Shown here in pieces: positions 15,112-39,240 of a stretch of 64,000 nt of DNA. The position numbers and the translations under genes were made by a program. Origin of the DNA: Tetraselmis striata. Taxonomy: Eukaryota; Chlorophyta; Chlorodendrophyceae; Chlorodendrales; Chlorodendraceae. Positions within the stretch are counted from its first letter, which is position 1. The number at the start of each line of letters is the position of its first letter. The stretch is taken from positions 1 to 64,000 of the forward strand of contig VCJN01002889.1 of NCBI GenBank assembly GCA_006384855.1, written 5' to 3'. The notes under the pieces were generated by a model. The model ran no database searches. It saw only the letters and a list, made by a program, of their open reading frames with translations, and was not told the origin of the DNA.

Positions 15112-16287
15112 TACATATTATTTACCAATCAACCCACCCACCCACCGCGCGCGCCTGAGCGGGCCCGACGACCGTCCTCGGGCCTCGGAATCGCGGGCCC
15201 TTCCTCCGCCTCCACCCCCGGCTGGGGATGGGGGCGGGGATGGTGCACGGGTGGCGCCTTGGTAGCCTTGGCCCCGCCCGTGTTGCCACTGCCGCGGAGG
15301 AGCAGTGTGAGCTGAACACCGGCGTTTCACATCATTGCTGGTCCGGTCAACTCCCCGTTCGCTGTTCTTTGAGCACCCTCTCCCTTCCTGTCCTGTCGGC
15401 GCCTCCACATCACATTCGGCCTAGTGCCGCCATTGGAGTGGCCCGGGATGTTGTGCTGGGAAGGGAGTTCTACGTTCGGCGGAAGGGGACGCGGCCGAGG
15501 TGGCGGCGGATCTGGCGTTGGGCGGAACAACGTGCGCTGGACACCGGCGTCTTACGTCGTTGTTGGTCTGGTCAACTCCCCGTTCGCTGTTCTTTGAGCA
15601 CCCTCTCCCTCCCTGTCATGTCGGCGCCTCCACATCACATTCGGCCTAGTGCCGCTATTGGAGTGGCCCGGGATGTTGTGCTGGGAAGGAAGTTCTACAT
15701 TCGGCGGAAGGGGACGCGACCGAGCCGGCGGCGGATTTGGCGCTGGGCGGAACAGCGCACACTGGACACCGGTGTCTTACGTCGTTGCTGGCCCGGTCGG
15801 CTCTCCATTCCCTACTCGTTGAGGACTCTCTCCCTTCCTGTCCTGTTGGCGCCTCCACATCACATTCGGCCTAGTGCCGCTATTGGAGTGGCCCGGGACG
15901 TTGTGTTGTGGAAGGCGTTCTACGTTCGGCGGAAGGGGACGCGACCGAGCTGGCGGCGAATTTGGCGCTAGGTCTGTTGCACGCCCGTGCCGCCCCGTTC
16001 TGGGTTGGACCCCCCCCCACTTCCGCTCCTTGCTGCGAGACCTCTACTTCGAAGCCCCTTTCCTGTCGGCGCCTTCACATCACATTCGGCCTAGTGCCGC
16101 TATTGGAGTGGCCCGGGATTGTGTGCTGGGGAGAGCGTCCCTACTGCGTGGAGCGGCGGCTGGCTGGTGGCGATGCTTGATCGGTGGTTGTCATGGCGGT
16201 TCCCGCCTCTTGTGGCCCGTAGCTGGATTTTCTTCTGGATTTCCGCATGGATTTCTTGAATTTTGCAGCTAGCACATGTAATCATGA
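15112..16287 (+). mobile_element. Mobile repeat with exact 225-bp units, copy 1
   Basis: The element is bracketed by a perfect 13-bp direct repeat. Its core has units starting at 15316, 15541 and 15766, exactly 225 bp (75 codons) apart, so a 247-codon ORF (15228-15971) reads through three 75-residue repeats containing HIRPSAAIGVARDVVLG. A fourth, diverged unit follows. The 3' end reads GGATTTCTTGAATTTTGCAG then GCACATGTAATC, and so includes a TGTAA element next to the duplication, as expected if a polyadenylated Pol II transcript was retroposed. Related copies are inverted at 34930-36941 and 38566-39240. No reverse transcriptase is encoded, so it would be non-autonomous. The peptide matches no family I recognise, and its translation may be fortuitous. 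Confidence 0.75.
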
Positions 16288-16812: not shown

Positions 16813-17279
16813 CATGCTGACAGCGGCAGGTAAGCCAGTGTCAGTGACATCAAGTAAGCAGTGACAGCGAGCAACAGAGTGACAATGAGTAGTGACAGCA
16901 AGAAGCGAGCAACAAGTAGATGGTAGGCCGGGAGGCCGGGAGGGTCCGGGGCGTAGCCCCAAAAACATGTAATTGCGGTTTACATGTTTGGCACTATATA
17001 TGGTCTGTTCTCATTGCACTGCACTCCAATAGCACTTGCAACAGTATGCATGAGGCATTAACAGAGGAAAACCTCCTTAATGTCCCATGACAGTACTTTG
17101 CACAGTAATGGACTTCACTGACAAACAAAGTGCGCAAGCCGCAAAATCAGAGGGAGGGGGGCGGAGGGGGTTGTGGCAGCTAATAAACCAGGAAATGAAA
17201 TCGGAAGAGCCTAACCGTACCAGGAGTAAGTACGTAAGATTCCTGATACCCGTAGTACGTTATTATCTTCGCCTTGTCA
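16813..17279. other. Flank upstream of the retrotransposon repeats
   Basis: Contains the imperfect GTGACA repeats, a purine-rich AGAGGGAGGGGGGCGGAGGG block at about 17150 and no gene. It directly abuts the first 1058-bp repeat. Confidence 0.5.
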
Positions 17280-18337
17280 CAGCGTACAACGTTTCAGCGT
17301 ACGCATGCGCGCGTACAGGGACTTGCTTACTTGGCATACCGGCGAATACTCGTCGCCTGTCATACGGGTATCAATTTTAGTACTTGCAGTACTGCGTTGT
17401 ATGTGTATGCCTGATGTCCAAGCGAGCAGTCACCCATGGCGCAACGACCAACTGTCTGTCGCTCAGCTCTCACACCTAGAACCACCGACAGACCTAGGGC
17501 CCGTACCAACGGCTAACTGCCGCCAACCACGGCGCCCGTGCAGACCAATAGCGCGTGGGAAGGCCTAGGGGCTTAGTCGGCTCGCGCGCCCGCGGGATGC
17601 TTTAGCATCCTGTCGGCGCGCTGCCCGCCCACTCTTTGGCTTTCCAAACGTCTCATCCCACCCATCTTGTAACCACGCTACTACACCACAAACACCTCGA
17701 ATCTGTGCACATCACACCTGCACGTGCCTCGTCTATTGCTGTCCATCAAGGGCAGTGCAACCTGCTGTCGAGCTGCGAGTGATATCGCGCAGCAAACAAC
17801 GGTGGTGAGTCGCGGTTACACCTGTGTTGTTTGCGTCGTGACGCCCGTCTTGCTTTTACCTCCTGTGAACCCGTCGTACCGACTGCCTGGACTTGTCGAC
17901 CGACCGACCGACCGACCGATTAGCGTACCGAACGTGCCTGATCAGCACTGGCTTGCTTGTTGCCATATGCGAGCAGTCGGTACTGCGCGTCGTCGTCGTC
18001 GAGTCGTGTCGTGATACCGTACGCGTACGCATATGCGCGCGTGCGGGCACTCGTAGTCCATTCGCGAGAGGCATGTCGTGCGGCACAGGGTGAGGAGTGC
18101 TTGACGTATTTCGCGTCGATCGACCACACACACACACACCTCTGTCACGCCGAGTAACCAAGCAACTCGCACGCGTGTGTAGTGCCGGCCAATAGGGCCG
18201 ATGGCACTGTGAGACGTACTTCTACTGGAGTCATAGGAACCGAGGCCAAGAGTCAGCAAGTCTTAGACAGAGACTTAGAGGCCAGGACACGTACATAAGA
18301 CCACATGCCTAAGAGTCTGTTAGGCGATCGTTTGGAA
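17280..18337 (+). repeat. 1058-bp long repeat, first copy (LTR-like)
   Basis: This unit is repeated immediately downstream (18338-19395) with no difference seen. It begins CAGCGTACAACG and ends GATCGTTTGGAA, so it lacks the common TG...CA ends. It contains a hairpin GGATGC-TTTA-GCATCC at 17594-17609, a (CCGA)n microsatellite near 17897, a (CA)n run near 18125 and several small ORFs that look fortuitous. It is interpreted as an LTR of the adjoining Ty3/gypsy element because the second copy abuts the internal region. Being placed in tandem, without a downstream copy, is unusual. Confidence 0.8.
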
Positions 18338-19395
18338 CAGCGTACAACGTTTCAGCGTACGCATGCGCGCGTACAGGGACTTGCTTACTTGGCATACCGG
18401 CGAATACTCGTCGCCTGTCATACGGGTATCAATTTTAGTACTTGCAGTACTGCGTTGTATGTGTATGCCTGATGTCCAAGCGAGCAGTCACCCATGGCGC
18501 AACGACCAACTGTCTGTCGCTCAGCTCTCACACCTAGAACCACCGACAGACCTAGGGCCCGTACCAACGGCTAACTGCCGCCAACCACGGCGCCCGTGCA
18601 GACCAATAGCGCGTGGGAAGGCCTAGGGGCTTAGTCGGCTCGCGCGCCCGCGGGATGCTTTAGCATCCTGTCGGCGCGCTGCCCGCCCACTCTTTGGCTT
18701 TCCAAACGTCTCATCCCACCCATCTTGTAACCACGCTACTACACCACAAACACCTCGAATCTGTGCACATCACACCTGCACGTGCCTCGTCTATTGCTGT
18801 CCATCAAGGGCAGTGCAACCTGCTGTCGAGCTGCGAGTGATATCGCGCAGCAAACAACGGTGGTGAGTCGCGGTTACACCTGTGTTGTTTGCGTCGTGAC
18901 GCCCGTCTTGCTTTTACCTCCTGTGAACCCGTCGTACCGACTGCCTGGACTTGTCGACCGACCGACCGACCGACCGATTAGCGTACCGAACGTGCCTGAT
19001 CAGCACTGGCTTGCTTGTTGCCATATGCGAGCAGTCGGTACTGCGCGTCGTCGTCGTCGAGTCGTGTCGTGATACCGTACGCGTACGCATATGCGCGCGT
19101 GCGGGCACTCGTAGTCCATTCGCGAGAGGCATGTCGTGCGGCACAGGGTGAGGAGTGCTTGACGTATTTCGCGTCGATCGACCACACACACACACACCTC
19201 TGTCACGCCGAGTAACCAAGCAACTCGCACGCGTGTGTAGTGCCGGCCAATAGGGCCGATGGCACTGTGAGACGTACTTCTACTGGAGTCATAGGAACCG
19301 AGGCCAAGAGTCAGCAAGTCTTAGACAGAGACTTAGAGGCCAGGACACGTACATAAGACCACATGCCTAAGAGTCTGTTAGGCGATCGTTTGGAA
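18338..19395 (+). repeat. 1058-bp long repeat, second copy (LTR-like)
   Basis: Identical to 17280-18337 and joined to it with no intervening base. It directly precedes the internal region of the retrotransposon. It contains at 18687-18708 the sequence complementary to the presumed primer site at its own 3' end. Confidence 0.8.
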
Positions 19396-19408
19396 AGCCA
19401 AAGAGTGG
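19387..19408 (+). promoter_or_regulatory. Candidate self-priming primer-binding site
   Basis: CGTTTGGAAAGCCAAAGAGT plus GG (22 nt) spans the repeat/internal boundary at 19395/19396. It is perfectly complementary to 18687-18708 inside the second repeat (and to 17629-17650 in the first). Thirteen of the 22 nt lie exactly where a primer-binding site belongs, directly 3' of the LTR. This arrangement is what self-primed elements such as fission yeast Tf1 use, where the 5' part of the mRNA folds back as primer. The role is inferred. Confidence 0.5.
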
Positions 19409-19774: not shown

Positions 19775-22700
19775 ATGTCAGAGGGAGAGAGCCCGCGCCA
19801 ACTCAGACGACGCTTCACGAGGAGTACCGGAGCACCTGTGGCAGCACCCTTATTGGAGCCGGAGCGCGTCTTGCGTCAAGCGCTCCGTGACGCCATGGCG
19901 CAGCGCGGTGGAGACCCCAGCGCCGTAGGATCTGGAACACCATCAAGACGACGACCACCTGGAAGTCAGCACTACACGCCCAATCAGATCATGGGTGACC
20001 TGAGTGCAGCGGAGGAGCGCATCTACGAGGAGCGAGAAGACGCGCGGACAATCGCCGGTGGTCTACGCAAGGAGACAACACCACGCCATGAGCGCTTCGA
20101 CGGCGCTACCTCAATATGGACGGAGTGGTTCAGTTCATTCAACGCCAACGTGTTGGTGCCATACGCGCTTAACAAGGCGCCACCAAGATCAGCCCCGAGG
20201 GCTGACGGAGCTGGTCCATCGGAGGGCGAGAGCACCGGACCGGAGTGGGTGTTCAGCCCAGCAGACTCCCTTCAGCTTCTTCAAGAGTACGTCGAGATCA
20301 ACGCTGTCACCAGGCCCATCATCGATCAATGGCAGAAGGACACTCTACGCTATCAACAACAAACTCTCCGCTTCGACCCTGCATCCGGACGCATTAGAGT
20401 GCCATCGCGCGAGGATGCGGACGCCTTTCACGAGTTCCGCTATCGACGCTACGTGGAGCTCTTTGAGACCAAGTTCAATGAGGCGCCGAAGATGCGCACT
20501 AGGTACGACGCCTACACCCGTGAGGGCTTCCGCGAGACCCCTGCCAGCTTGGCGATGACTCTTCGCGAGCTCAAGGCGCATCTACCAGACCTCACGTGGG
20601 ACAAGGTCAACCAGAAAGCGTTCGACGTCATGACCTCTGTGTGGCGCTCTATTCCGGCGCTCAAGCAATCCCTCGACGCTGGGTTCCACCAGCTCAAGGA
20701 CATCGCTGTTCTACGCCAGTCTCATGAGGACCGCTTGGACGAGATAGCTGCGGAGGTGGAGCGCTATGAGGACATCGTGAGGAAGGATGAGATTAGAATG
20801 GCGGAGGCCTTGACGGCTGCCCAACACTTCGCGGAACTGACTGGAGCATCGCCGCCGGCAGCTGGTGGAGGACGGCAGCACGGCACCAGCACTCCAGAAC
20901 CGGTCATCACATGGACCATGGTCAACGGACGTCGTGTGCGAGCGCAGCTTGTCGTCGTGAAGGACACCCACCAGATCCGCCCGTTGTGCGAGGCATGCAC
21001 AAAGGCGCGTGGACGCGACATCTTTCACGGAGCCAACTACCGAGAGTGTGCCAACAAGTTCGGCTCAACCATGTATGTCAACGACGCCGCTGGTGGCCGT
21101 GGCGGCCGTGGAGGCGGCCGAGGCGCAGGCCGAGTTGGCCGTGGTGGTCATGGCGGCGGACGCGGCGATGGAGGCGCACCCGGAGGCGGACGAGGACCGT
21201 GCTGGAACGCTGGGTGCGACGGCGCTCATAACTTTACTGAGTGCGACAAGCCAATCACTGACCCTACGCTCATCGCACGACTGAAGCGCAACCAGCGGGA
21301 GCGAGAGCGCCGTCTTGCCTATGGACAGCAACGCGGATGGGCTATGGACGTGGAGACCGGACTGTCCAAGCTCGAGATGGACTTGGCGAGGAAAGCCGGA
21401 CACATGCTCACTGGGCGACACGACGCCCATGTTGACGGAGCGGCGAGATCATCAACAATGGCAGACCTGGAGGCCATGTTCTCTCGCATCCTCGAGAAGT
21501 CTCAAGCTGCCCATGGTGCTACGGGTGCCATGCGCTTGGCCGTGGAGGTGCCAGACCCCTTTCTGGATTGCGTTGACACCGACGATCACGGCACTTTGCT
21601 ACATGGAGCGTCGTGTGTGGAGCTGCCCGTGCGTGAGCTGCGTGAAGTCTTCTTTGGAGCTCCAGGTCGTGCGCAACCTGTGGGAGCTGACTGGACGCCG
21701 GAGTCAACTGTGCCAAGACCGCGTGGACGCCCGGCAGTGCTGCCTCCAGGATCGGCGCGGAACCCTGAACTTCGCATGCGCCAACCCGGATGGGACGCCC
21801 AACGCGAGCAGCTCACCAAGCAGCGGCCCCAAGGCTTTGAGCCGGCAGTCGAGCAGGAGGCTCCTGCGTCCTATGAGGGCCGCCGTGCAGGAGGAGCAAT
21901 CACCTCGGACATGTTGGACATCCGCAATCAGCAGCTCCTGCAGCACCTGCGCACAGCGCTACAGCACGCCAAGTTCCCTGGTCTACCCGTTGCTGTAGTA
22001 TCGGACATGACACCCGAGCATGCTGCAAGGTGGTTGGAGGCACGCAACACTGCACTGCGTGGAGGACTTGACACTCGTGACCACATGGCCGTGGCATGGG
22101 AGACGGTGCTTCAGCAAGCCGTCCGACGCTTCGAGGCGACAGCGCGGCTCACCTGGGTTGACTACACGCACCTCGACTTGACGCGCGTCTTTGCCGCAGC
22201 CGTGCAGAGCGTCTATGGTCTGTCTCTCCCACGCGTCAGTGTCCCGCCACTGTCCTTGCCATCAGCGGAGCCCCAAGCCAACATTCATCCAGTGGACGTG
22301 GTGCAACATGGCGTCAAGCCTCTGGAGTCTCGGCGCCAACTGTCAGCGACATCTTCGGAACTTCAACAGTTGCGAGAGGTGCAGCGCAGCGCATACCCTG
22401 ACTACCCGGAGTATGACCGCCACAGTGCTTTCTACGTGGACTGCAAGTTGACCGTCATCGTCATTGGCGGCGTGCGCATCCTTATGGCCTTGTTAGACAC
22501 CGGCTGTGACTACAGCGGTGTGCACCGGCGCGTGGTGGATCGCATGAAGCCGGGCGAGGCGGACGCCACGCTGCAGTCCATGTCCATGCAAGGCATTGGC
22601 GGCAAGATGGAGATGCAGCGCCTTGTGGGGCGCATCTCCTACGTGATCAACCCGGACACTGATTGGGAGCGCAAGTTTGAGTGGCCATCGTTCGCCATTC

Positions 22701-25700
22701 TCGAAGGCGATCATCTTCCAGATGTCATCTTGTGCACATCCGTCATGGCACACCTTGGCATGGTCATCGATGTGGGGGGGCATACTGCCTCATACCGCCC
22801 AGATCCCCACGATCTCAGCCGCCACGTCGATGTGCCGCTGAAGCATCACAACATGCCCAAGCTCCAAGTCCCGCGCAGGCTGCCGCACGCAACGCTGGCC
22901 GTGTTGGCATCGGACGGCCCATCTCCCGGACTGCCGTCAGGAGTTGGGGGGGGGGAGGAGCCCGATGCCGCAGCCAACCTGACCTCTTCATTCTCCTTCA
23001 ACAGCCGGATCGAGCTGCAACCGGACAACGTGGGCGCCGGCGCTGCAGTGCAGCTGGAGCAGCAGGACGACGACGCTGAGCTACCGGAGCTTGTAGCCGA
23101 CTCAGATGGCGAGGAGGACTTTGTGCCCTGTTGGGTAGAGGAAGTGCCCGACCATGTTGCCAACGTCATTGCGTCATGCTTCACCCTGCGCGCCAGTCCC
23201 ATGGACGTCGACTCTGATAGCGATGAGGAGCTGCCGGGCCTGGTGGAGGACTCCAGCGATGATGACGATGTCTACGAGGAGCTGCCGGACCTGATGGAGG
23301 ACTCCAGCGATGATGACGATGTCTATGTGGAGCTCACCATCATGACACAGACGGAGCCGGAGGTCGGAACAACGCTTGATAGCGAACCACTGGCCGCGGG
23401 CGCGTGTTACGCCCTGCGCGCGGAGGGCCCCGGCGCCGACAATCTGCAGGAGCATGACTGCCCATCAGACGATGAGGAGCTGGAGGATGGCACTGCAATG
23501 CCATTGAAGGAACATGAGGACGAGATACCGGGCTGGAGGGAGCTCCGGACGCAGCGTCAAGCTGCCGGCCGGCTGCACTTGAGCGGCCACACACTGGAGC
23601 GTTTAGCGCTCGTGCGCGCCGTGCCGCATTCGACGCCGGAGCTGAGCTACATCATCGACCTCGACCGGACCGGAGGCAAGGAGGGACGCGCCAAGCAAGG
23701 GCTCTTCTTGTTCGCTGGCATGCTGTCAGTGTTGTTCACCAACCTCGTCGACGGGTACCACTATGAGCTGATACAGATCGTGGATCGTATGCTCCGGAGC
23801 GTGGCTCATCGGCAGCGCCTGCTGCGACAGCTTGAGTGGATGCATCAGCGGTGGCCCGTGCAACTTCCTCGCAAGGCGTTCGAGAAGTGCTTCGCTCTTA
23901 GCGACGAGTTGGAGCATGACGTGGAGCACATCACAGCACCAGCCATCCTGAGGCACCTGCCGGAGCTGGACGAGCTACGCGCTGAGCCGCCCTGTCAGGA
24001 CGTGTCATCGATGGGCACTCAGCATGGACTACGTGGTGCGCGTACTGGAGTGATAGTCCCGTTGGCAGAGGCGATGAGCGAGCTCAACTGCATGTTGGCC
24101 AAGGCACGAGGCGTCAAGGAGTACTGGGCTGCTCCCGCGCAGTATGGATACGTTATAGAGAACGTGATACCGGCTGCGCCGAGCCGGCGCAGCCCTGAGG
24201 TGCAGGAGTTCATCGACTTCATGGCCCGTGTCTTTGGCGAGCCCAACGCGCATCATGCCCACAAATGCGGAGACGCCTCTCTTCGCTCTGCTTTGTGGTG
24301 GACCAACACCTTCACTCAGCACTACTACCAGGCTGTGCAACACGAGTTTGAGCGGCCGCCTCGCGAGACCTACGCGCAGATTGTGGAGCGTTGCAGCGGT
24401 GGGCTGCTTCGCGCTCAAGTGGCGACGCCCACACGCCCAGGCACACTGCTGGGGGGGCTCAACGTTGCCGGTCGGCGCATGATTTATGCGCCCAAGTCAG
24501 TCAGCACGCCCAACACGCGTACGCAGCGCCTCCGACCTGGGGGGGCGCCCGGCTCAGGAATGGTGGAGGTTGTCGGCATTGACCCGCCGCAATACCGTCC
24601 GTCATCAGCCGTCATGCGTGAGGCGTGCCTTCTCGACAGAGACTATGCTGGCTTTTACACCCGGCAGGAGCTAGGCTTTTCTGAGGAGGAGATGGTGATT
24701 GCCATCGGAAATGTTTGTGCGCCGACGTCGGTGTCGGTCATGAACCGGTGTGCTGTCGCCTATGCGCATGAGCGCAGACATCAACATATGCTGCAAGCTG
24801 TTTGTGCAGCAACGATTGAGAAGGACGCCCCTGCCGGCGCAGCAGTTGAAGATCATTTGGTCAACACGCAAGAGCTGCGCGCCGCACAGCACGAGCTCCG
24901 CCGCTCAACGGCTGCCGCCGTGGAGGCAGAGATGGAGCATGCCATCAACATGGCTACCCTCAAGCAAGGTACTAGAGTGAAACCTCCTGACAACCCACGC
25001 ACAGCAGCGCGAGTGACCAAGGCGGGGCGCCGTTGGCTGGAGGAGCAGCGCCAAGCGACTCGAGCGACGGAGCGGGAGGTCGCCAAGGCTCGGCGCCGTG
25101 TGTTGGCAGCTGACCACACAGCCCGAGTTGTTGCCGGCGATCACAAGGCTGCCAAACCAAGACCCCGTCGTGGTAGAGCTGCTACCGGACGCAAGACTGT
25201 CAGCGCGGCGTTGACACTTCTGATGTGGCTAGCCCTTTTGGGCCCCGCGTGCTTCGTCGCCGCTGGCGTCGGTTCGCGTGCTGGCGCTGGACTGATGGCA
25301 GATGTCTTTGGTGGAGCGCAAGAGCGTCCTGCGTGGGCCCCATCACATGTGGACGGTGTTGACGACAAAGCTGCAGCGGACGGATGGAGTCGACGCAGCC
25401 AGGCAGCTCTCGTGAAGTGCTATGCCGCATACGCCAACGAGAAGCATCTCGGTAAGGAATCACCAACGGTGAAGGTAACGAGCAAGCTCATCAACCCCAA
25501 GGACTCCAAGCAGCCTCATCACTGGGCGATATCGGCAGATTGGAAGGACAAGGAGGGCTTCGCAGCACTTATGGACTCAGACCCGGGTTGGTACGCGTGG
25601 GGTCTGGACGACTTGCGTGCCGTTGACGCCGAGCCCTATGACTTCCAGCTGGTCGACTACAACCCAGTCTTCAAGCGCCAGTATCACCTTGCCCATCGAG

Positions 25701-28627
25701 AGCAAGAGTGGGCTAACGATTGGGTCAAGAAGTTGGAGAAGGCAGGCATCGTGGGCGAGATCGAGAGCCCTTATGCTGCACCAGTCATCGTGGCGCCGAA
25801 GAAGGACGAGCATGGCGCCTGGACCGATCTTCGCTATGCGGTGGACTATCGTGGCCTCAACGAGCGTACCATCCGCGATCAATACCCGTGCCCGACAGCG
25901 GACGAGCTCATGACGCGCATGGAGGGAGCTTCGCGATTCACCGCGACTGATTGCACGAAGGCGTTTCATCAGCGCCGAGTGTCAGACAAGCCGTCCGGAC
26001 CCGATGGATTGTCAGCACAGCAACGTCTCGCGTTCCATGCAGGCAATCGGCTGCTAACCTTCAAACGCATGCCCTTCGGACACAAGAACTGCGTGGCAGC
26101 ATGGCAGCGCGTTGTGGATCAAGCGCTCGCTGGTTTGGACTTCGCAGTCGCCTTCGCGGACGATGTACTGATTTTCAGTCATGACGATGAGCAGGAGCAC
26201 ATGCGCCGTGTGCGCATTGTGTTTGATCGACTCAAGGCCCGGGGAGTGCAGGTCTCTCCACCCAAGACACGGCTCGGACTGTCACGAGTGACCTTTCTTG
26301 GTCATATTGTCAGCGGCGCAGGCGTGGAGCCTATGGCTGACAAGGTGGAGGCCATCAACTCTCTTCCGGCGCCGAAGAATGTCAGTGATGTGCGCCATTT
26401 CCTCGGGATGGCCACCTACTACTGCCGTTTCTTGGAGAGCTTCTCGCTTGTGAAGGCACCTTTGACAGCGTTGACCAAGAAGGATGCGCCGTGGAAATGG
26501 GGCGCAGCCGAGCAGCAATCCTTCGACGCCATCAAGGCCATGCTGGTTTCGGCGCCGGTGCTGCGCCATCCTGATTGGCGTCGCCCGTTTGTGCTGCACA
26601 CCGATTGGTCACGAGCTGGAGTAGGAGCGTGCCTTTCGCAGGTGGACGACAATGGCGTGGAGTATGCCGTGTCTTTTGCGTCGCGCATGAACACCCCAGT
26701 GGAGGCAGACCTGTCTAGCTACGAGGGAGAGGTCGGCGCAGTCGTGTGGGCTGTTCAACGCTTCCGCTACTACCTGTATGGCAACCACTTCCAGCTCATC
26801 ACTGACTGCAAGGCCATGGAGTGGCTGCGGACGACAGCAAGGCTGCGAGGCAAGCTTGCTAGGTGGAGCCTCATCCTTGCGGAGTACGACTTCAGTATCA
26901 AGCACCGTCCGGGCAAGGACAACACCGTGCCGGACTTGCTCAGTCGGCGTCCAATGCCAGCGGAGCCAGTAAGGGCCACCTCGGAAGCCGCCGGCACCGC
27001 CACTGCAATCGCCACTCAGAGGAGGTCGCCAGCCGCGATGGCGGATGCGTCGGCTATGTTTGGTGGCTGCTCACCCAGCAAGTGCCTTGGAAGGACGCCC
27101 GCGCTACCCTCGGCACACGCAGCGTTTGCAACACAGTGTATCGCAATGGCCTTCACGGCAGGTGTCTACGCTAGCCAGGAGCTTCATTGGCCTACCCGGG
27201 ACGTGTGGAGCAGCCCAGTGGCTATCTCTTACCTGCGAGGTGAGACCACGCCAGCCGACGTGTCAGTGGAGGTGTGGCAGCAGCTTGTGCGCCGCTGCGC
27301 CAAGTACAGCTGGCACAACGACAAGGTGTGGCTGCACACTGGAGACACTGCCCGTGAGGTGCCCAAGCCTGAAGAGCGACCGGACGCGATTCGCCGAGTG
27401 CACGCCAGCATCGGCCACCTTGGCCGGGACCGCACTTACCAAGTGTTGGCCCGCCACTTTGTATGGCCGGGCATGCACAAAGACGTCGGCGCCATGGTCA
27501 AGCAGTGCCGCGCCTGTGACCGCGTCAAAGCGTCGTTCAACCAGAAGCACGATCGTCTCAAGCCCATGCCACTGTTTGGGCTCTTCTATCGCTTCAGCGT
27601 GGACTCAGCCGGACCGCTGCCGACTAGCAGCGAGGGCCACAAGTACGTAATCGTCATCGTGGAGCACTTCAGCAAGTGGATCGAGCTGGTGCCTGTCCGC
27701 GACCTCGAGGCGACTACGACTGCCAAAGCGTTCCATGAGCGCGTGTTGGCCCGTTATGGAGCACCAGTGGAGGTCGTCACAGACAATGGCACTGAATACC
27801 AAGGCGCGTTCCGCGAGCAGTTGGAGCGCCATGGCATTCAGCCCGTGGACATTCCGCCAGGGCATCCCCAAGCCAATGGCATGGCCGAGCGCATCGTTCA
27901 AGTCTTGAAGGTGGCACTTCGGAAAGTTGTGCCAACCCTCGGCACTGCCTCTTGGCACTCGTGGATGCCAGTGATCGAGTTTGGCTATCGTGTCAGCAAG
28001 CAAGCAACAACCGGCTACAGCCCGTACTTTCTTCTGTTTGGCCGTGATCATGTGGCACCGGACCAGGTTCGCGCGCTACTGGAGGAGCCGGTCGACATGG
28101 ACAACGACATTGCAGTCATCAACCTAATCACACAGCGGGCTGATATGCTGAGGGCTGCCATGCCTAAGGCATTCGAGAGGGCGCTGCAAGCTCAACAGCG
28201 CGATGTGGTACGCTACCGCAAGGTTCGGCGCGGCGATGTGCAGCCTCGGCGCCACCGCTTCGAGATCGGCAGCTACGTCTACGTGGCGCAGCCCCCGCTC
28301 AACACCCTGGACGTCCGTACCGCCCGCACCATCCTGCGTGTTGTGGAGATCTTGGAGTCCGGATGGCTGCGTTTGTCCGGATCCGATGGCAACGAGATTC
28401 AAGTGCACATGGACAACTGCGCGCCGTGCCACTTGTCCAACCTTGTGCCGGCGCGGTACGGCCGCGGCATGCCAGCATGCAAAGGTTGTGGCAGCGACAG
28501 CATTGCAGCCCCACGACTCATCTGTGACAAGTGCCAAGCCATGTGGCATGTGGCGTGCGCCAAGGCAGAGTTACATCCTGGCGAGGAGTGGCTATGCCCG
28601 GACTGCGCGCCGCCACTACGCCGCTGA
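19775..28627 (+). CDS. Gag-PR-DNMT-RT-RH-IN-PHD polyprotein (2950 aa)
   Basis: One uninterrupted frame. Gag covers roughly residues 1-500, with a Cys/His cluster C405-C408-H418-C425, an RG-rich stretch and a CX4CX3HX4C knuckle at C476-C481-H485-C490. The aspartic protease has LLDTGCDYSG with catalytic D908. An acidic linker at 1151-1184 contains two copies of a 17-residue unit. The cytosine methyltransferase spans about 1290-1671 (C1407 in PPCQ, E1462 in ENV). A basic stretch and a hydrophobic segment (about 1809-1833) follow. RT has the active site FADD at D2129-D2130. RNase H has D2277 and downstream Glu/Asp motifs. Integrase has an HX4H...CX2C finger (H2543, H2548, C2578, C2581) and the triad D2610, D2670, E2705. 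A PHD finger lies at 2902-2944. All catalytic residues are present, so the element may be competent. No Gag-Pol frameshift is seen, so a single translation product must be cut by the protease or made at one stoichiometry. Confidence 0.96.
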   Translation: MSEGESPRQLRRRFTRSTGAPVAAPLLEPERVLRQALRDAMAQRGGDPSAVGSGTPSRRRPPGSQHYTPNQIMGDLSAAEERIYEEREDARTIAGGLRKETTPRHERFDGATSIWTEWFSSFNANVLVPYALNKAPPRSAPRADGAGPSEGESTGPEWVFSPADSLQLLQEYVEINAVTRPIIDQWQKDTLRYQQQTLRFDPASGRIRVPSREDADAFHEFRYRRYVELFETKFNEAPKMRTRYDAYTREGFRETPASLAMTLRELKAHLPDLTWDKVNQKAFDVMTSVWRSIPALKQSLDAGFHQLKDIAVLRQSHEDRLDEIAAEVERYEDIVRKDEIRMAEALTAAQHFAELTGASPPAAGGGRQHGTSTPEPVITWTMVNGRRVRAQLVVVKDTHQIRPLCEACTKARGRDIFHGANYRECANKFGSTMYVNDAAGGRGGRGGGRGAGRVGRGGHGGGRGDGGAPGGGRGPCWNAGCDGAHNFTECDKPITDPTLIARLKRNQRERERRLAYGQQRGWAMDVETGLSKLEMDLARKAGHMLTGRHDAHVDGAARSSTMADLEAMFSRILEKSQAAHGATGAMRLAVEVPDPFLDCVDTDDHGTLLHGASCVELPVRELREVFFGAPGRAQPVGADWTPESTVPRPRGRPAVLPPGSARNPELRMRQPGWDAQREQLTKQRPQGFEPAVEQEAPASYEGRRAGGAITSDMLDIRNQQLLQHLRTALQHAKFPGLPVAVVSDMTPEHAARWLEARNTALRGGLDTRDHMAVAWETVLQQAVRRFEATARLTWVDYTHLDLTRVFAAAVQSVYGLSLPRVSVPPLSLPSAEPQANIHPVDVVQHGVKPLESRRQLSATSSELQQLREVQRSAYPDYPEYDRHSAFYVDCKLTVIVIGGVRILMALLDTGCDYSGVHRRVVDRMKPGEADATLQSMSMQGIGGKMEMQRLVGRISYVINPDTDWERKFEWPSFAILEGDHLPDVILCTSVMAHLGMVIDVGGHTASYRPDPHDLSRHVDVPLKHHNMPKLQVPRRLPHATLAVLASDGPSPGLPSGVGGGEEPDAAANLTSSFSFNSRIELQPDNVGAGAAVQLEQQDDDAELPELVADSDGEEDFVPCWVEEVPDHVANVIASCFTLRASPMDVDSDSDEELPGLVEDSSDDDDVYEELPDLMEDSSDDDDVYVELTIMTQTEPEVGTTLDSEPLAAGACYALRAEGPGADNLQEHDCPSDDEELEDGTAMPLKEHEDEIPGWRELRTQRQAAGRLHLSGHTLERLALVRAVPHSTPELSYIIDLDRTGGKEGRAKQGLFLFAGMLSVLFTNLVDGYHYELIQIVDRMLRSVAHRQRLLRQLEWMHQRWPVQLPRKAFEKCFALSDELEHDVEHITAPAILRHLPELDELRAEPPCQDVSSMGTQHGLRGARTGVIVPLAEAMSELNCMLAKARGVKEYWAAPAQYGYVIENVIPAAPSRRSPEVQEFIDFMARVFGEPNAHHAHKCGDASLRSALWWTNTFTQHYYQAVQHEFERPPRETYAQIVERCSGGLLRAQVATPTRPGTLLGGLNVAGRRMIYAPKSVSTPNTRTQRLRPGGAPGSGMVEVVGIDPPQYRPSSAVMREACLLDRDYAGFYTRQELGFSEEEMVIAIGNVCAPTSVSVMNRCAVAYAHERRHQHMLQAVCAATIEKDAPAGAAVEDHLVNTQELRAAQHELRRSTAAAVEAEMEHAINMATLKQGTRVKPPDNPRTAARVTKAGRRWLEEQRQATRATEREVAKARRRVLAADHTARVVAGDHKAAKPRPRRGRAATGRKTVSAALTLLMWLALLGPACFVAAGVGSRAGAGLMADVFGGAQERPAWAPSHVDGVDDKAAADGWSRRSQAALVKCYAAYANEKHLGKESPTVKVTSKLINPKDSKQPHHWAISADWKDKEGFAALMDSDPGWYAWGLDDLRAVDAEPYDFQLVDYNPVFKRQYHLAHREQEWANDWVKKLEKAGIVGEIESPYAAPVIVAPKKDEHGAWTDLRYAVDYRGLNERTIRDQYPCPTADELMTRMEGASRFTATDCTKAFHQRRVSDKPSGPDGLSAQQRLAFHAGNRLLTFKRMPFGHKNCVAAWQRVVDQALAGLDFAVAFADDVLIFSHDDEQEHMRRVRIVFDRLKARGVQVSPPKTRLGLSRVTFLGHIVSGAGVEPMADKVEAINSLPAPKNVSDVRHFLGMATYYCRFLESFSLVKAPLTALTKKDAPWKWGAAEQQSFDAIKAMLVSAPVLRHPDWRRPFVLHTDWSRAGVGACLSQVDDNGVEYAVSFASRMNTPVEADLSSYEGEVGAVVWAVQRFRYYLYGNHFQLITDCKAMEWLRTTARLRGKLARWSLILAEYDFSIKHRPGKDNTVPDLLSRRPMPAEPVRATSEAAGTATAIATQRRSPAAMADASAMFGGCSPSKCLGRTPALPSAHAAFATQCIAMAFTAGVYASQELHWPTRDVWSSPVAISYLRGETTPADVSVEVWQQLVRRCAKYSWHNDKVWLHTGDTAREVPKPEERPDAIRRVHASIGHLGRDRTYQVLARHFVWPGMHKDVGAMVKQCRACDRVKASFNQKHDRLKPMPLFGLFYRFSVDSAGPLPTSSEGHKYVIVIVEHFSKWIELVPVRDLEATTTAKAFHERVLARYGAPVEVVTDNGTEYQGAFREQLERHGIQPVDIPPGHPQANGMAERIVQVLKVALRKVVPTLGTASWHSWMPVIEFGYRVSKQATTGYSPYFLLFGRDHVAPDQVRALLEEPVDMDNDIAVINLITQRADMLRAAMPKAFERALQAQQRDVVRYRKVRRGDVQPRRHRFEIGSYVYVAQPPLNTLDVRTARTILRVVEILESGWLRLSGSDGNEIQVHMDNCAPCHLSNLVPARYGRGMPACKGCGSDSIAAPRLICDKCQAMWHVACAKAELHPGEEWLCPDCAPPLRR
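23225..23326 (+). repeat. 51-bp in-frame duplication in the acidic linker
   Basis: Two adjacent 51-bp units (23225-23275 and 23276-23326) differ at only a few positions. Each encodes EELP(G/D)L(V/M)EDSSDDDDVY, an acidic 17-residue repeat between protease and methyltransferase domains. A related ELPELVADSDGEED segment precedes them, so the linker has grown by duplication. Confidence 0.9.
23642..24787 (+). other. C5-cytosine DNA methyltransferase domain within the polyprotein
   Basis: This in-frame domain (residues about 1290-1671) shows the ordered motifs of C5-cytosine methyltransferases. A motif-I-like GLFLFAGMLSVLF is at 1309. Motif IV AEPPCQDVSSMGTQHGLRG has the catalytic Cys at 1407. Motif VI is YVIENV (E1462). 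A DNMT3-style GDASLRSALWWTN segment is at 1499, resembling the ARYFWGN region of DNMT3 proteins. Motif X is GFSEEEMVIAIGNVCAPTSV, starting at 1634. The target recognition part between VIII and X is about 120 residues. The motif order is linear, unlike plant DRM enzymes, which are permuted. Motif I lacks the usual glycine-rich GxGG, so cofactor binding is uncertain. The likely action is methylation of the element's own cDNA or its insertion neighbourhood. Capture from a host gene is inferred. Confidence 0.87.
25199..25273 (+). other. Hydrophobic segment between methyltransferase and RT
   Basis: Residues about 1809-1833 read VSAALTLLMWLALLGPACFV and continue with small residues, long and hydrophobic enough for a membrane span. 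They follow a very basic stretch KPRPRRGRAATGRK. A membrane-like segment inside a Pol polyprotein is not expected. It could also be a buried helix with a nuclear localisation signal before it. Confidence 0.5.
28478..28606 (+). other. C-terminal PHD finger of the integrase
   Basis: Residues 2902-2944 give a complete C4HC3 zinc signature: CKGC, then CDKC, MWHVAC and WLCPDC, with spacings typical of PHD fingers (CX2C-X11-CX2C-X4-HX2C-X14-CX2C). PHD fingers bind histone H3 tails. Its place right after the integrase tail is where chromoviruses carry a chromodomain, so it probably guides integration to marked chromatin (inference). The protein ends seven residues later. Confidence 0.88.
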
Positions 28628-28744
28628 CGCTGCAGCATAAAATGCTGCCACCCTACAAGCCATCTTCAAATCATCAGTCATCATCATCTTTTCTTCATGT
28701 CGTCAGCCGCGCACTTCCGTCTTGGACTCAACACCTGTGGAGTT

Positions 28745-28758
28745 GAGTGGGGGGGGAG
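28745..28758 (+). promoter_or_regulatory. Candidate polypurine tract of the retrotransposon
   Basis: GAGTGGGGGGGGAG, 118 nt after the stop codon, has the composition and position of a plus-strand primer tract. A 3' LTR should begin just after it, but the following CAGTGCGGCGCC is only superficially like the repeat start CAGCGTACAACG. Confidence 0.55.
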
Positions 28759-28760
28759 TA

Positions 28761-29547
28761 TGCAGTGCGGCGCCGACAGTTTACCATCACCACCCCATTT
28801 CTCTTTTTCCTGCGACAATCAGCCTCGCTTTTTCCGCCCCTAGCCGGCCCTAGGAGAGGACCGGCACCAGCGAAACCAGGGGTAAACCCTTGCAGCCCCT
28901 ACCTTGACCCTTGACCAATTCCCTCTACCCCGGCCCGTGGGCTGTGAGTAATAATATAATTACATGAGCTAGCAGCAGAAGGCGATATCGGAAATCACTA
29001 ACAAAAAGGGCTGTGAGTAATGATGCAATAAAGCAAAACCCATCTAAAAACGAGTACTACGGGTACGTTTAGTATTGATTTCCGCACGGCGGCGGGCGGC
29101 CGGTGATGATATAATACGAGGCGCGGCGGCGGCGCGGCGGCGGCGGTTCGTCGTCGCTTCTTGTCGCGACGATGATGCTGAGGCTGTCAACACCGCGACA
29201 AGGTCTCGTCGCCGCCATCGCCGCCGCCACCTATTCAACTGCTCTGTCAAATTGGACTGCTGTTCAAACCATAAGCTACAGTTGTACGGAATATAGCGAC
29301 CTGGGCGAGACATAGCTCGGTGAGAAAACTTGCACTGCTGCCCTCGAGCCGAAAGCAAGTCTAGGCCGCGCGCCGACCGGCTTCGCGTCAGGAAGTGGGA
29401 TTTCCAGTGAGGGCCTAAGGGGAAGAGTCGGGTGAAGCGGCACTACCTGTAGTGTTCCTACGGGCCGTTCCGCGACACTTGGCGACCCTTACACCAAACA
29501 CCGCAACTTATCGAAACTCTCCATCCAGGGCCAGCACCGACCTCAGG
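28761..29547. other. Flank between retrotransposon and PRMT3 gene
   Basis: No gene. A 17-bp motif GGGCTGTGAGTAAT(A/G)AT occurs at about 28939 and 29009, 70 bp apart. A (CGG)n-like block lies at 29117-29145. The 3' half should include the PRMT3 promoter; no clear TATA element was seen. Confidence 0.5.
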
Positions 29548-31374
29548 ATGAGGCGCCAGGAAGACGACGACAGCGGCAGCAGCACTGAGGAGGAGGAGCT
29601 GGAGGGGGCCGTGGACGACTGGGATGACTGGGGAGAGGGCGAAGGTACTTGTTGGAGGGGGGGGGGGGGGGGGGGGATGCTTGCTTGAGCGCCCTAGCCG
29701 TCTGGCCGGTTAGTCGACGCCCTTCACCTTGTCCTAGTGCCCCAGCTAGCTTACGGCAGTGCCGGCCCCGTGCCTGCTTGTTCCGCAGCCGGAGGCGACG
29801 AGGAGATGGGCGAAGAGCGCTGCAAGAGCCTGTTCTGCGAGGATACTTTCGCGTCCGCGGAAGAGGCGTTCGAGCACGACTCGGCCAAGTTCGGCTTCGA
29901 CCTGCGCGCGTTCACGGCGGAGCGGCGGCTGTCCGACTACGAGTGCATAAAATGCGTGAACTTTGTGCGCGCCACAGTGGCCGCCGGCGAGGACCCGCTT
30001 CCTGCACTGCGCAAGACCGAGGGACCGCTGCCCTTCGCGGACGACCGATGGCTGCAGCCAGTTCTCGAGGATGACGGCCTTATGTTCTACGACTTTGAGG
30101 GCGCCGCCCCTTCTGGGGAGACCAGCCAAGCGCCGGCAGGCAGTGCCACGCTGCCGCCAGCCGCAGTCCAGGAGCTTCTAGCTGAGAACCAGATGCTGCG
30201 CGAGTCGCTGGAGAGCCTGCGATGGTCTATCCTTCCAACGGAGCTTCGCCAGGAGGCGGAGCCGGGCTCCTCTGGGACCCCCAAGGAGAGCAAGGCGCGC
30301 GCGAAGAAGGAAGGGAAAGAGCAGTCCGCGGTGGACAAGAGCTACTTCCAGGGCTACGGCTACTTTGACATTCACCAGGAGATGCTGAGTGACAAGCACC
30401 GCACAGAGAGCTACCGGCAGGCGCTGGAGTGCAACCCCTCGGCGGTCGCGGGGAAGCGCGTGCTGGACGTGGGGTGCGGCACCGGCATTCTGTCCATGTT
30501 TGCGGCGCGCGGGGGTGCTGCCACCGCCATCGGGGTGGATGGGAGCGAACGCATCGCGTCCTTTGCGCGAAAGATTGCGGCGCTGAACGGCTTTGGAGGC
30601 GACAGCGAGGAGTCTGCGCGGGTGCAGATCGTGGCGGGGAAGGTGGAGGAGCTGCAGAGCCTAGCGCCCGGCGTGGACAAGGTGGACGTGATCGTCTCCG
30701 AGTGGATGGGCTATGCGCTGCTGTTTGAGTCCATGCTGGACAGCGTCTTCCTGGCGCGCGACAAGTGGCTCAAGCCTGGCGGAGCGATGATGCCCGACAG
30801 GGCGGCTATCCACGTGGCCGCCGGTGGCAAGCGCTCCACGGGCCTGAGCTTTTGGCACGATGTGTACGGCTTCAGCATGGCGCCCATTGCCGAGGAGACC
30901 CACCGCTCAGCATTGCAGGGCGCCATCGTGCGCGTGGTGCCGGCCGGGGACCTGGTCTCTGCTGCAGCTGCCGTCCAGGAATGGGACCTTCTGACCGCAC
31001 ACTCCGAGGATCTCAACTTCACCTCGGAGTTCCGATTGCCGCTTGAGGCTCCGGCGGGCGAGAGCTGCGCGTCCGTTGTCCTGTGGTTTGACACGGAGTT
31101 TTCGAGCCGCGTGTGCCCGGACAAGCCCGTGACGCTGACCACGTCCCCCATGGGCACCCCCACCCACTGGGCCCAGACGGTGCTGCCCCTGCGCGATGCC
31201 ATCCCGCTGGAGGGAGCAGCGGCCATCTGCGGCCGCGTCAGCTTTGCGGCCCGCAAGGGGGAGCTGCGCAGCATCGACATCTCCCTTGAGTGCTGGGCTG
31301 AGCTGGCGGGCGGGCAGCAGGCCGGCAGGCAGTCTCACATCTACAACATGGGCGTCAACCAGGACGGCGAATGA
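29548..31374 (+). CDS. PRMT3: Protein arginine N-methyltransferase 3
   Basis: Type I arginine methyltransferase using S-adenosylmethionine; PRMT3 enzymes modify ribosomal protein uS5 in the cytosol. Exons are 29548-29644 and 29789-31374 (GT-AG intron, phase 1, with a 20-G tract), giving 560 residues. The N-terminus is acidic, as in the family, then CKSLFCEDTFASAEEAFEH marks the PRMT3-specific zinc-finger region. Of the usual C2H2 ligands, the Cys spacing is CX4C and the second His is not at the expected place, so zinc binding may be altered. A KEGKEQSAVDKSYFQGYGYF segment leads into the catalytic core: HQEMLSDKHRTESY, motif I VLDVGCGTGILSMFAA (257 on), the double-E loop SEWMGYALLFESM (E337, E346) and the THW loop (491-493). 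A coiled-coil-like stretch (QELLAENQMLRESLESLRW) lies between finger and core. A TGTAA signal follows the stop by 57 nt. Confidence 0.95.
29657..29676. repeat. Poly-G tract (20 G) in the PRMT3 intron
   Basis: The run starts 12 nt after the donor site, on the coding strand, the opposite polarity to the C tracts in the ENT introns. Confidence 0.95.
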
Positions 31375-34929: not shown

Positions 34930-35365
34930 ACAGGTAGTGATTACATCATGTGCTGGACGCAACATTCAAGAAATCCACACAGAAATCCAGAAGGAAATCC
35001 AGCTTCGGGCCAACAGAGGCGGGAACCGCCATGGTAGCCACCGACCAGGCATCGCCACCAGCCAGCCGCCGCTCCACGCAGTAGGGACGCTCTCCCCAGC
35101 ACACTATCCCGGGCCACTCCAATAGCGGCACTAGGCCGAATGTAATGTGAAGGCGCCGACATGAAAGGAGCTTCGAAGTTGAGGTCTCGCAGCAAGGAGC
35201 GGAAGTGGGGGGTCCAACCCAGAACGGGGCGCCACGGGCGTGCAACTGACGCAGGCCACCCAACGCTAGATGCGCCGCCAGCTCGGTCGCGTCCTTTTTA
35301 CATTGCGGGTTTTATGTGGGTGTGCGCATGAGTGTGTATGGATGAGTATGTGGGTGGCGGTGGGT

Positions 35366-35383
35366 GGGGGGGGGGGGGGGGGG
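35366..35383. repeat. Poly-G tract (18 G)
   Basis: Uninterrupted G run within the insertion of mobile repeat copy 2. Confidence 0.95.
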
Positions 35384-35791
35384 CATTGGGGAGGGGGGTT
35401 AAGCGAATGTCACAGTTAGGGTGGCAGCGGCCACTCGGGCTCGTCGAGTCTTTGAATGCCATCAAGGGTTGAACATGCGGCATGTGTTCCGAGACTGAGG
35501 TACACGGGCCTCTGGCATGCGCCGTTCTTGCCGCCAGGGTGGGTGCTTGCCGACTGGGCGCGTCCCGGTGGCCAAAAGCATCGGCGGTGGGCGCCTTCCG
35601 CACGGAGCTTTTTGTGCAATGCAAAATACAAAATTCACCAAATCTGCCAGGTGTTGATGTTTTGCGCTGTCAAACATATCCCTGCAAGAATTGCCGCGCA
35701 TGTCCCGTACTCGGTAGACAACACCCCACTACAGCAGCGGAGCTGCGCTATGTTACTCCTAGCAATATCAGCGAGGGCCCTCACCCAAGGA

Positions 35792-36125
35792 TCAGCACTG
35801 CCACCCTACAGTCTCCGAGAATTGCAGCAAGTCCCCGCATGTGCAGTTGCAAAGCACCACACCGCTAGTGCCGGCGGCTGACGGCAGCATCGGCCGAACT
35901 TGCGTGCCAAGGGCACTGGTCAGGGCGACCAGCGCCATCCGTTTGTCCATCTTCTTCATCTTGGGCCGCATATCCTGTGAGGGCACACACATATCAGCCA
36001 CGCCCCTTGCGGCATGAACTACGGGCGGGCAGGAACAACTCTGTAAAAGATCAGTAAGCTTCAGGGTTCCGACATACTCCCAAAAGTCTTTGACTACCCC
36101 CAGCAAGATTGCACCAAACTGGCCT
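35792..36125 (-). pseudogene. Possible captured coding fragment inside mobile repeat copy 2
   Basis: The minus-strand frame entered from the repeat reads VNFVGQFGAILLGVVKDFWE, then SQDMRPKMKKMDKRMALVAL and SALGTQVRP, and ends after DLLQFSETVGWQC. It is less biased than the surrounding repeat and contains acceptor-like TTTTACAG and CCTCACAG sites. The KRMALVALTSALG part faintly recalls ribosomal protein uL4, but this is too weak to name. It may be a host gene fragment carried by the element or a fortuitous ORF. Confidence 0.25.
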
Positions 36126-36945
36126 ACAAAATTCACCAAACGTAGAACGCCTTCCCCAACACAACATCCCGGGCCACTCCAATAGCGGCGCTGAGCCGAA
36201 TGTGATGTGGAGGCGCCAACAGGACAGGAAGGGAGAAAGTGCTCAACGAGTAGGGAATGCAGAGCCGACCGGGCCAGCAACGACGTAAGACGCCGGTGTC
36301 CAGCGCGCTTTGTTCCGCCGAGCGCCAGATCCGCCGCAAGCTCGGTCGCGTCCCCTTCCGCCGAACGTAGAACTCTCTTCCCATCACAACATCCCGGGCC
36401 ACTCCAATAGCGGCACTAGGCCGAATGTGATGTGGAGGCGCCGACAGGTTAGGAAGGGAGAGGGTGCTCAAAGAACAGCGAACATGGACTTCACTGGACC
36501 AGCAACGACGTAAGACGCCGGTGTCCAGCGCACGTTGTTCCGCCCAGCGCTAGATCCGCCGCCAGCTCGGTCGCGTCCCCTTCCGCCGAACATAGAACTC
36601 CCTTCCCAGCACGACATCCCGGGCCACTCCAATGGCGGCACTAGGCCGAATGTGATGTGGAGGCGCCGACAGGACAGGAAGCAAGGGAGAGGGTGCTCAG
36701 AGAACAGCGAACGGGGACTTGACCGGACCAGCAACGACATAAGACGCCGGTGTCCAGCTCACACTGCTCCTCCGCATCAGTGGCAACACGGGCGGGGCCA
36801 AGGCTACCAAGGCGCCACCCGTGCACGATCCCCGCCCCCATCCCCAGCCGGGGGTGGAGGCGGAGGAAGGGCCCGCGATTCCGAGGGCCGAGGACGGTCG
36901 TCGGGCCCGCCCAGGCGGCGGTGGGTGGGAACTGCTAAGTGGTAG

Positions 36946-38520: not shown

Positions 38521-38565
38521 CCTAGACTTCTGAATTCTTGAGACTGCCGAAAAGGGACCCCAAAC

Positions 38566-39240
38566 TTCTGTGCATGGGTGTAGAAATCCATACAGAAATC
38601 CGGCTACGGGCCACCAGAGGCGGAAAGCGCCCTGGCAGCCACAGACCAGGCATCGCCACCCGCCACCCGCCGCTCCACGTAGTAGGGACGCCCTCCCCAA
38701 CACACAATTCCGGGCCATTCCAATATGTATCGGCAGTAGGCCGAATGTGAGGTGGAGGTGCCGACAGGAAAAGAGCTGCGAAGAGGTCTCGCAGCAAGGA
38801 GCGGAAGGGGGGGGGGGGGGGGTGCCAACCCAGGACGGGGCGCCGCGTTTGAGTAGCCGACGCGGGCCTCCCAGCGCGATATCTGCCGCCATCTCGGTCG
38901 CGTCCCCTTCCGCCGAACGTAAACCTCCCTCCCCAACACAACATCCCGGGCCACTCCAATAGCGGCACTAGGCTGAATGTGAGGTGGAGGCGCCGACATG
39001 ATAGTAAGGGAGAGGGTGCTCAACGAACAACGAACGTGGAGTTGACTGGACCAGCAACGACATACGACGCCGATGTCCAGCTCGCACTGCTCCTCCGGCA
39101 CTGGCAGCACGGGCGGGGCCAGGGCTACCAAGATGCCACCCATGCACGAGCCCCGCCCCCAACATCCCAAGCCGAGGGCGGAGGCGGAGGGAGGGCTCGC
39201 GATTCAGAGGGCCAAAGATGTTTGTCGAGTCCACCCAGTC
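38566..39240 (-). repeat. Partial third copy of the 225-bp-unit family
   Basis: The minus strand shows the same GC-rich start (near 39100-39230), one to two diverged units and the GGATTTCTGTATGGATTTCT 3' stretch, but lacks the terminal TGTAA part. It holds a 16-G tract at 38807-38822. No duplication of the target site was found, so it is probably truncated. Confidence 0.6.

Follow-up and report, generated by a model that had tools for sequence, protein, structure and literature searches.

A predicted C5-cytosine methyltransferase in Pol of a multi-copy Ty3/gypsy family from a chlorophyte

Organization of the locus

The DNA analysed here (the window) is a stretch of 64,000 nucleotides of contig VCJN01002889.1. 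It harbors one member of a Ty3/gypsy retrotransposon family that is present in many copies in a chlorophyte genome (Table 1). The protein of the element matches a Tetstr1 protein at 99%, which supports the chlorophyte host that the initial annotation had left conditional. Most likely the host is Tetraselmis striata, for which we take the prefix Tetstr1 to stand.

Table 1. Features of the window element. Positions are those of the window.
Feature	Position	Strand	Basis
GCCT, proposed 4-bp target-site duplication, left copy	17271-17274	.	sequence; repeated at 28822-28825
First A repeat, start TGTCACAGCG; last 8 letters belong to the primer-binding site	17275-18336	+	repeat comparison
Second A repeat, without initial TGTC, no B segment in front	18337-19386	+	repeat comparison
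22-nt complement of the primer-binding site, proposed self-primer	18687-18708, also 17629-17650	+	exact inverted repeat
Primer-binding site CGTTTGGAAAGCCAAAGAGTGG, directly after A	19387-19408	+	repeat comparison
Gag-pol ORF, uninterrupted, 2950 aa	19775-28627	+	ORF list
Protease active-site motif ALLDTGC, residues 905-911	22487-22507	+	alignment with relatives
C5-cytosine methyltransferase domain, residues 1290-1690	23642-24844	+	alignment, profiles, AlphaFold2 model, PDB matches
Motif IV PPCQDVS, from residue 1405, catalytic C1407	23987-24007	+	alignment
Motif VI ENV, residues 1462-1464	24158-24166	+	alignment
Motif VIII-like LRSALWWTN, residues 1503-1511	24281-24307	+	alignment
Motif IX/X-like YTRQELG...AIGNVC, residues 1628-1648 (YTRQELG from 1628, AIGNVC from 1643)	24656-24718	+	alignment
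Hydrophobic segment, residues 1812-1850, between methyltransferase and RT	25208-25324	+	alignment
Reverse transcriptase (RT) RVT_1, residues 2008-2179	25796-26311	+	Pfam
RNase H, residues 2242-2371	26498-26887	+	Pfam
DDE integrase (H2C2 zinc-binding part and rve core), residues 2531-2698	27365-27868	+	Pfam
C-terminal PHD finger, residues 2902-2944	28478-28606	+	Pfam, below cut-off
Polypurine tract, directly before B1	28739-28755	+	sequence; same in other copies
B segment, end GACA	28756-28817	+	comparison of copies
GCCT, proposed target-site duplication, right copy	28822-28825	.	sequence

The Ty3/gypsy order of protease, RT, RNase H and integrase is present. The last three are Pfam assignments; the 2950-residue protein has no Pfam match to a protease, and this domain is assigned by its motif, which reads D[TSG]GC or DGGAD in the aligned relatives. 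The PHD finger stays below the Pfam cut-off in the window element (E = 0.00097, 19.6 bits, cut-off 24) and exceeds it in the three relatives tested (28.7, 32 and 42 bits). It occupies the slot after the integrase where chromoviruses carry a chromodomain. The segment between methyltransferase and RT is membrane-like and also hydrophobic in the aligned relatives, at 20-37% identity.

A gene for an arginine methyltransferase (PRMT_C and a PRMT3-type zinc finger) occupies 29737-31374 and starts ~0.9 kb past the right end of the element. A 225-bp tandem repeat is present at 15296-16138 and 34938-39004, with relatives in inverted orientation ~20 kb away.

The methyltransferase domain

Motifs, profile matches of relatives and a structural model confirm that residues ~1300-1680 form a C5-cytosine methyltransferase domain, the enzyme activity of which is predicted. 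The initial annotation had placed such a domain between protease and RT, in the same frame of a Ty3/gypsy element, and this holds: both lie in the single 2950-aa ORF, and the motifs sit where it put them, with C1407 and E1462 (in ENV) as named there, LRSALWWTN from 1503 and AIGNVC from 1643. Its extent was given as 23642-24787. The start is retained and the end is moved, as the domain continues to about 24844.

In an alignment of 11 divergent elements (the window element and proteins P0009-P0018), the catalytic Cys and ENV are invariant in all rows. The Pro preceding the Cys is substituted in P0014 and P0018. The R, both W and the N of LRSALWWTN are also found in 11 of 11 rows (pattern R..A.WW.N), as are G and N of the motif IX/X-like region; in P0018, YTR is altered and much of motif IX is gone. 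The AdoMet-binding motif I is diverged (LFAGM, GYTGM, AASGM), with the G alone nearly constant (18 of 19 rows).

An HMM search had been proposed as a check. On the window element it stays below the Pfam cut-off of 22 bits, both for the whole protein (PF00145 over residues 1379-1433, 12.7 bits, E = 0.087) and for the isolated segment (about 15.6 bits, E = 0.01). The divergent elements do better: seven of 11 match PF00145 at E ≤ 1 (best 2.4e-5), nine match a PHROG DNA methyltransferase profile (best 2.6e-7) and two the NCBIfam dcm profile (best 0.025). These matches place the assignment beyond chance. Searched against the PDB, a profile built from the 11 rows weakly matches HhaI-type entries and no others (0.037).

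An AlphaFold2 model of the domain (input of 13 rows) has a mean pLDDT of 85 and a pTM of 0.87. The predicted structure has a Rossmann methyltransferase fold with a target-recognition part (pLDDT 85). In a Foldseek comparison, the best 50 of 140 PDB matches at E ≤ 0.001 all have the C5-methyltransferase fold, including one C5-carboxymethyltransferase and several DNMT3A/3B-DNMT3L complexes. The top matches are M.MpeI (8.6e-9), DNMT3B (2.6e-8), DNMT3A (2.9e-8) and HhaI (1.3e-7). Among viral structures, phage and giant-virus cytosine methyltransferases come first.

Relatives and DNMT3 kinship

Ten proteins were returned by a search with the domain in the whole protein: eight Tetstr1 models (71-99% identity) and two proteins from other sources (45-49%). 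With one of the latter as query, a second search returned 10, of which eight were new, with 41-74% identity to this query. Across P0009-P0018, identity to the window element is 35-51% in the domain and 64-75% in RT (the value of 75% belongs to P0011, with little of RT covered). The domain is better kept than the preceding spacer (17-28%) and the following linker (14-35%). When the domain profile was used to look for homologues (8000 candidates scored), no stand-alone relative emerged; apart from one lgn protein, the 17 proteins returned are pieces of Tetstr1 gene models. Two scans of viral contigs yielded no relative.

Kinship of the domain with DNMT3, as claimed initially, is suggested by two observations. 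The motif VIII-like segment has the form R....W.N (LRSALWWTN compared with HRARYFWGN of DNMT3A). In a small tree of 17 rows, 12 retroelement domains cluster (94/92, drawn open); DNMT3A falls on their side, with HhaI and a further three methyltransferases from the host genome on the other (100/99). This tree contains one DNMT3 row and few references, and the program warns of long branches. Two comparisons do not favor DNMT3: the window-family profile matches HhaI (E = 0.032) but lists no DNMT3A at E ≤ 1000, and Foldseek does not separate DNMT3 from M.MpeI and HhaI.

Copies in the host genome and constraint

The host genome (224,097,584 bases in 2903 contigs) was scanned for the domain and for RT. 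The domain has at least 120 matches (108 of 329 candidates scored), eight of which lie inside stop-free open frames of at least 2900 aa. Among the 114 RT matches listed, the best 54 were assigned to the family (at least 89% identity, shortest match 299 aa; 16 shorter rows of like identity were excluded). A domain is present upstream on the same strand in 50 of these 54 places, within 1.3 kb in 49 and at 8.6 kb in one. The spacing is exactly 1003 bp in 27 of the 50. One of the four places that lack an upstream domain is at a contig start. Full copies without the domain are thus not the rule. The domain is conserved in many copies of the family, and the window copy is no one-off chimera. Of the order for which a genome search had been proposed, the succession of methyltransferase and RT recurs in the 49 places with short spacing.

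Thirty loci were fetched for codon comparison, of which L017, L020 and L030 were excluded as out of register. In the 27 remaining copies, pN/pS of the domain is 0.27; the values are 0.60 for the preceding spacer (10 of 30 rows) and 0.11 in the direction of RT (19 of 28). The catalytic Cys is present in 26 of the 27. Variants common to at least two copies comprise 21 silent and 10 changing ones. The domain is under constraint in this family.

The copies of the family are young. CpG observed/expected is 0.97 in the ORF and 0.99 and 1.02 in the flanks; with no depletion of CpG, the element bears no trace of past methylation.

The genome holds a second gypsy family (L087), the open methyltransferase of which has 47% identity (pN 0.37, pS 0.70). 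No methyltransferase match was seen by eye near 40 places of another gypsy family with 43-46% RT identity.

Methyltransferases in other retroelements of the genome

PF00145 scores above its cut-off at 123 places of the host genome, 39 of them in open frames of at least 1000 aa (counted by eye). Three of the 39 were fetched for domain content. Two are copia polyproteins with RVT_2, integrase and gag-pre-integrase (L081 and L082, on C663 and C1471), in which the methyltransferase is placed before the integrase. The third represents another class (L083/L088, C2687:15300-24500), with RVT_1, PCIF1_WW, a C5 methyltransferase and RNase H in a frame of 3505 aa. By its domain matches, this retroelement may carry two methyltransferases.

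The three C5-methyltransferase domains pass the PF00145 cut-off with 46.1, 37.1 and 36.4 bits. The window-family profile matches them at 3.1e-21, 3e-14 and 2.5e-11 (search size 100,000), and a block PKF/Y-V...PG.GM is common to the window family and these domains. A profile built from them matches HaeIII (1e-7), DNMT2-type tRNA methyltransferases (1.2e-6), DNMT3A (3.3e-6) and HhaI (8.2e-6). Together with the tree, these sequence matches suggest that the gypsy, copia and third-class domains form one retroelement clade, probably DNMT3-like.

Terminal repeats and insertion sites

Both ends could be read in ten other copies, all of which have the order A1-internal-B1-A2-B2. A starts with TGTCACAGCG and reaches the primer-binding site after about 1054 nt. 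It starts with TT in the copy on C2232, in which the second letter of the element is changed. B has a length of about 62-66 nt in the ten copies, directly follows the polypurine tract and terminates with GACA. The palindrome GACAATTGTC is formed at the B1|A2 joint. The A2|B2 joints have nine forms in ten copies (those on C1905 and C494 are the same), with 0-2 shared letters or with 1 or 9 extra letters (9 in one copy). Target duplications of 4 bp were identified by eye in nine of the ten; the copy on C2425 has none. Three copies (C1657, C916, C1283) show no difference between A1 and A2 over the stretch aligned. A matches 42 places of the host genome (40 candidates scored).

The window copy has the order A-A-internal-B and lacks A2 and B2 after B1. 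Its A repeats are 100% identical to each other over 1059 nt. Its target-site duplication is weaker than those of the other copies because ATCA (28818-28821) lies between GACA and the right GCCT. An identical LTR at both ends, the usual trait of Ty3/gypsy elements, is found neither in the ten other copies nor in the window copy. At first sight the tandem A repeat resembles an ordinary LTR pair, a reading that was rejected once the repeat had been compared across the genome.

The 22-nt complement of the primer-binding site is located at position 355 of A in all ten other copies. Tf1 of fission yeast, also a Ty3/gypsy element, uses part of its own RNA as primer; it has ordinary LTRs and no methyltransferase. 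In the window element, by comparison, the complement has a length of 22 nt and is situated about 355 nt into A. A tyrosine recombinase has no Pfam match in the window ORF, and the seven PF00589 places of the host genome are all off the contig of the window.

Proposed route of integration and role of the methyltransferase

Polypurine tract and primer-binding site delimit the LTR in LTR elements, so that the LTR made by reverse transcription would be B-A in this family. The anatomy of the copies suggests the following route. The element RNA would prime itself through the 22-nt complement, and reverse transcription would yield LTRs of the order B-A. The B and A ends would then be joined, most simply in a two-LTR circle. 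Integrase would open the joined DNA at GACAATTGTC, where B meets A, and insert it with a 4-bp target duplication, and the variable A2|B2 joints would be repair joints. The window copy could be the product of a circle after loss of B and TGTC at the joint: only the other palindrome would be left to open, and A2-B2 would be missing on the right. A circle intermediate is suggested by this arrangement, and linear dimers joined at their ends would produce identical termini. The copy without target duplication on C2425 and the 4-nt filler needed in the window copy speak against the route.

Integration of two-LTR circles was once proposed for retroviruses and then given up, and has been doubted since the 1980s. 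Cutting of such palindromes by HIV-1 integrase and of two-LTR circles by foamy-virus integrase has been reported (PMC1905944, PMC1180852).

The repeats could instead arise by a fixed route of the DIRS type with an internal complementary region. DIRS elements are not known to make a target duplication. They have the A-coding-B-A-B order in common with this family, and de Mendoza and co-workers term the repeats of KnitGypsy-Dnmt3 DIRS-like (PMC5890265). Against such an origin stand the DDE integrase of the window element, the missing tyrosine recombinase match in its ORF, the location of the PF00589 places on other contigs and, in the family, the 4-bp target duplications and nine different joints in ten copies. 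We consider the DIRS-type route unlikely. Instead of another opening of the circle, an error of the assembly or a subsequent rearrangement could also account for the tandem A repeats and the missing A2-B2 of the window copy. This is a possible explanation of some weight, given the identity of both A repeats over 1059 nt, and we lean away from it: the ends TGTC and GACA are those of the other copies, and GCCT is present on both sides with the 4-nt filler.

In the preferred route, the methyltransferase would travel with RT and integrase and methylate the double-stranded DNA of the element before or at integration. A new copy would thereby enter marked like host DNA or already quiet. Methylation of the element's own DNA is most likely the role of the domain, by its place in Pol and by analogy to known elements (PMC5890265). 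Two other functions appear improbable to a like degree. The domain could act on RNA, for example the transcript of the element, in the manner of DNMT2-type enzymes. The copia/third-class profile matches these about as well as DNMT3A and HaeIII, and RNA methylation was raised for SymbioLINE by de Mendoza and co-workers (PMC5890265); the tree and motif VIII lean to DNMT3A, however, and the domain shares Pol with RT and integrase, both of which work on DNA. Alternatively, a dead methyltransferase fold could be retained for DNA binding or as a partner, like DNMT3L. The diverged motif I, the weak profile scores, a constraint weaker than towards RT and the loss of much of motif IX in P0018 would fit a dead fold, but the catalytic Cys and ENV are kept in every divergent row. 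In DNMT3L, catalytic Cys and ENV are lost.

Taken together, a Ty3/gypsy family with a DNMT3-like methyltransferase and a PHD finger in Pol, circle-derived insertion and methylation of its own DNA is a reading that we regard as probable. The data lend no support to the view that circles have a particular need for methylation. The idea that methyltransferases occur only on elements that use circles was rejected, because one copia carrier (C663) has an ordinary LTR pair (478 bp, 98.7% alike, 5-bp duplication by eye) and no repeated B. We propose only tentatively, and at somewhat less than even confidence, that a gypsy element with a DDE integrase integrates from end-joined two-LTR circles via the palindrome and that one captured methyltransferase moved between retroelement superfamilies.

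Comparison with known elements

The kind of element is already known. KnitGypsy-Dnmt3 of Klebsormidium nitens is a gypsy element with a DNMT in Pol and DIRS-like repeats (de Mendoza et al. 2018, PMC5890265, here and below as described in parts of that paper). It shares with the window element the LTR gypsy domain set, the DNMT inside Pol and the DIRS-like repeat order, and with the family the presence of several copies under purifying selection (Ka/Ks < 0.2 for KnitGypsy). The elements, compared by description, differ in host, a charophyte in one case and a chlorophyte in the other. A PHD finger and a protease are not named for KnitGypsy-Dnmt3 in the main text, whereas the window element has both (PHD below cut-off, protease motif). 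Variation of joints is not given in the parts of PMC5890265 that describe it, in contrast to the nine joints in ten copies found here. Its test in yeast was inconclusive and activity was not shown (PMC5890265).

SymbioDIRS-Dnmt3 and SymbioLINE-Dnmt of Symbiodinium are likewise numerous retroelements with embedded C5 methyltransferases, and the SymbioDIRS-Dnmt3 domains methylate CG in yeast (PMC5890265). SymbioDIRS has A-coding-B-A-B repeats, as in the other copies of the window family. These are tyrosine-recombinase and LINE elements, respectively, in contrast to the DDE integrase of the window element (PMC5890265). DIRS elements with adenine methyltransferases also combine a methyltransferase with split repeats (PMC5890265); that enzyme is unrelated to the one described here, and DIRS uses a tyrosine recombinase. 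DNMT3 members are further described in copia and DIRS elements (PMC12344493, in part), and retrotransposons with adenine or cytosine methylases in green algae among others (PMC6338049); the window element is not named in the relevant passages of the latter.

A literature search that covered few subscription journals found no published report of the window family. The elements of this host, the related copia and third-class methyltransferases and the anatomy of end-joined circles were not met in it. The case is larger and easier to test than the known algal one. Elements that are silenced by DNA methylation and yet carry a methyltransferase present a puzzle. One algal genome contains an intact-looking gypsy family, carriers of a second gypsy family, of copia and of a third class, and a gypsy family without the domain, so that methylation can be compared between elements with and without the domain. 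The terminal anatomy, if interpreted correctly, would reveal a DDE integrase that uses a circle.

Outside retroelements, DNMT5a and DNMT6 are described for Tetraselmis in parts of PMC9998398. In the genome scanned here, stand-alone Dcm-like genes without introns are repeated, with frames of 325 aa on C1993, C776, C1647, C2337, C355 and C1455 and three frames of 341 aa on C1230. These repeated genes, two of which were fetched (L084, L085), are perhaps of viral origin.
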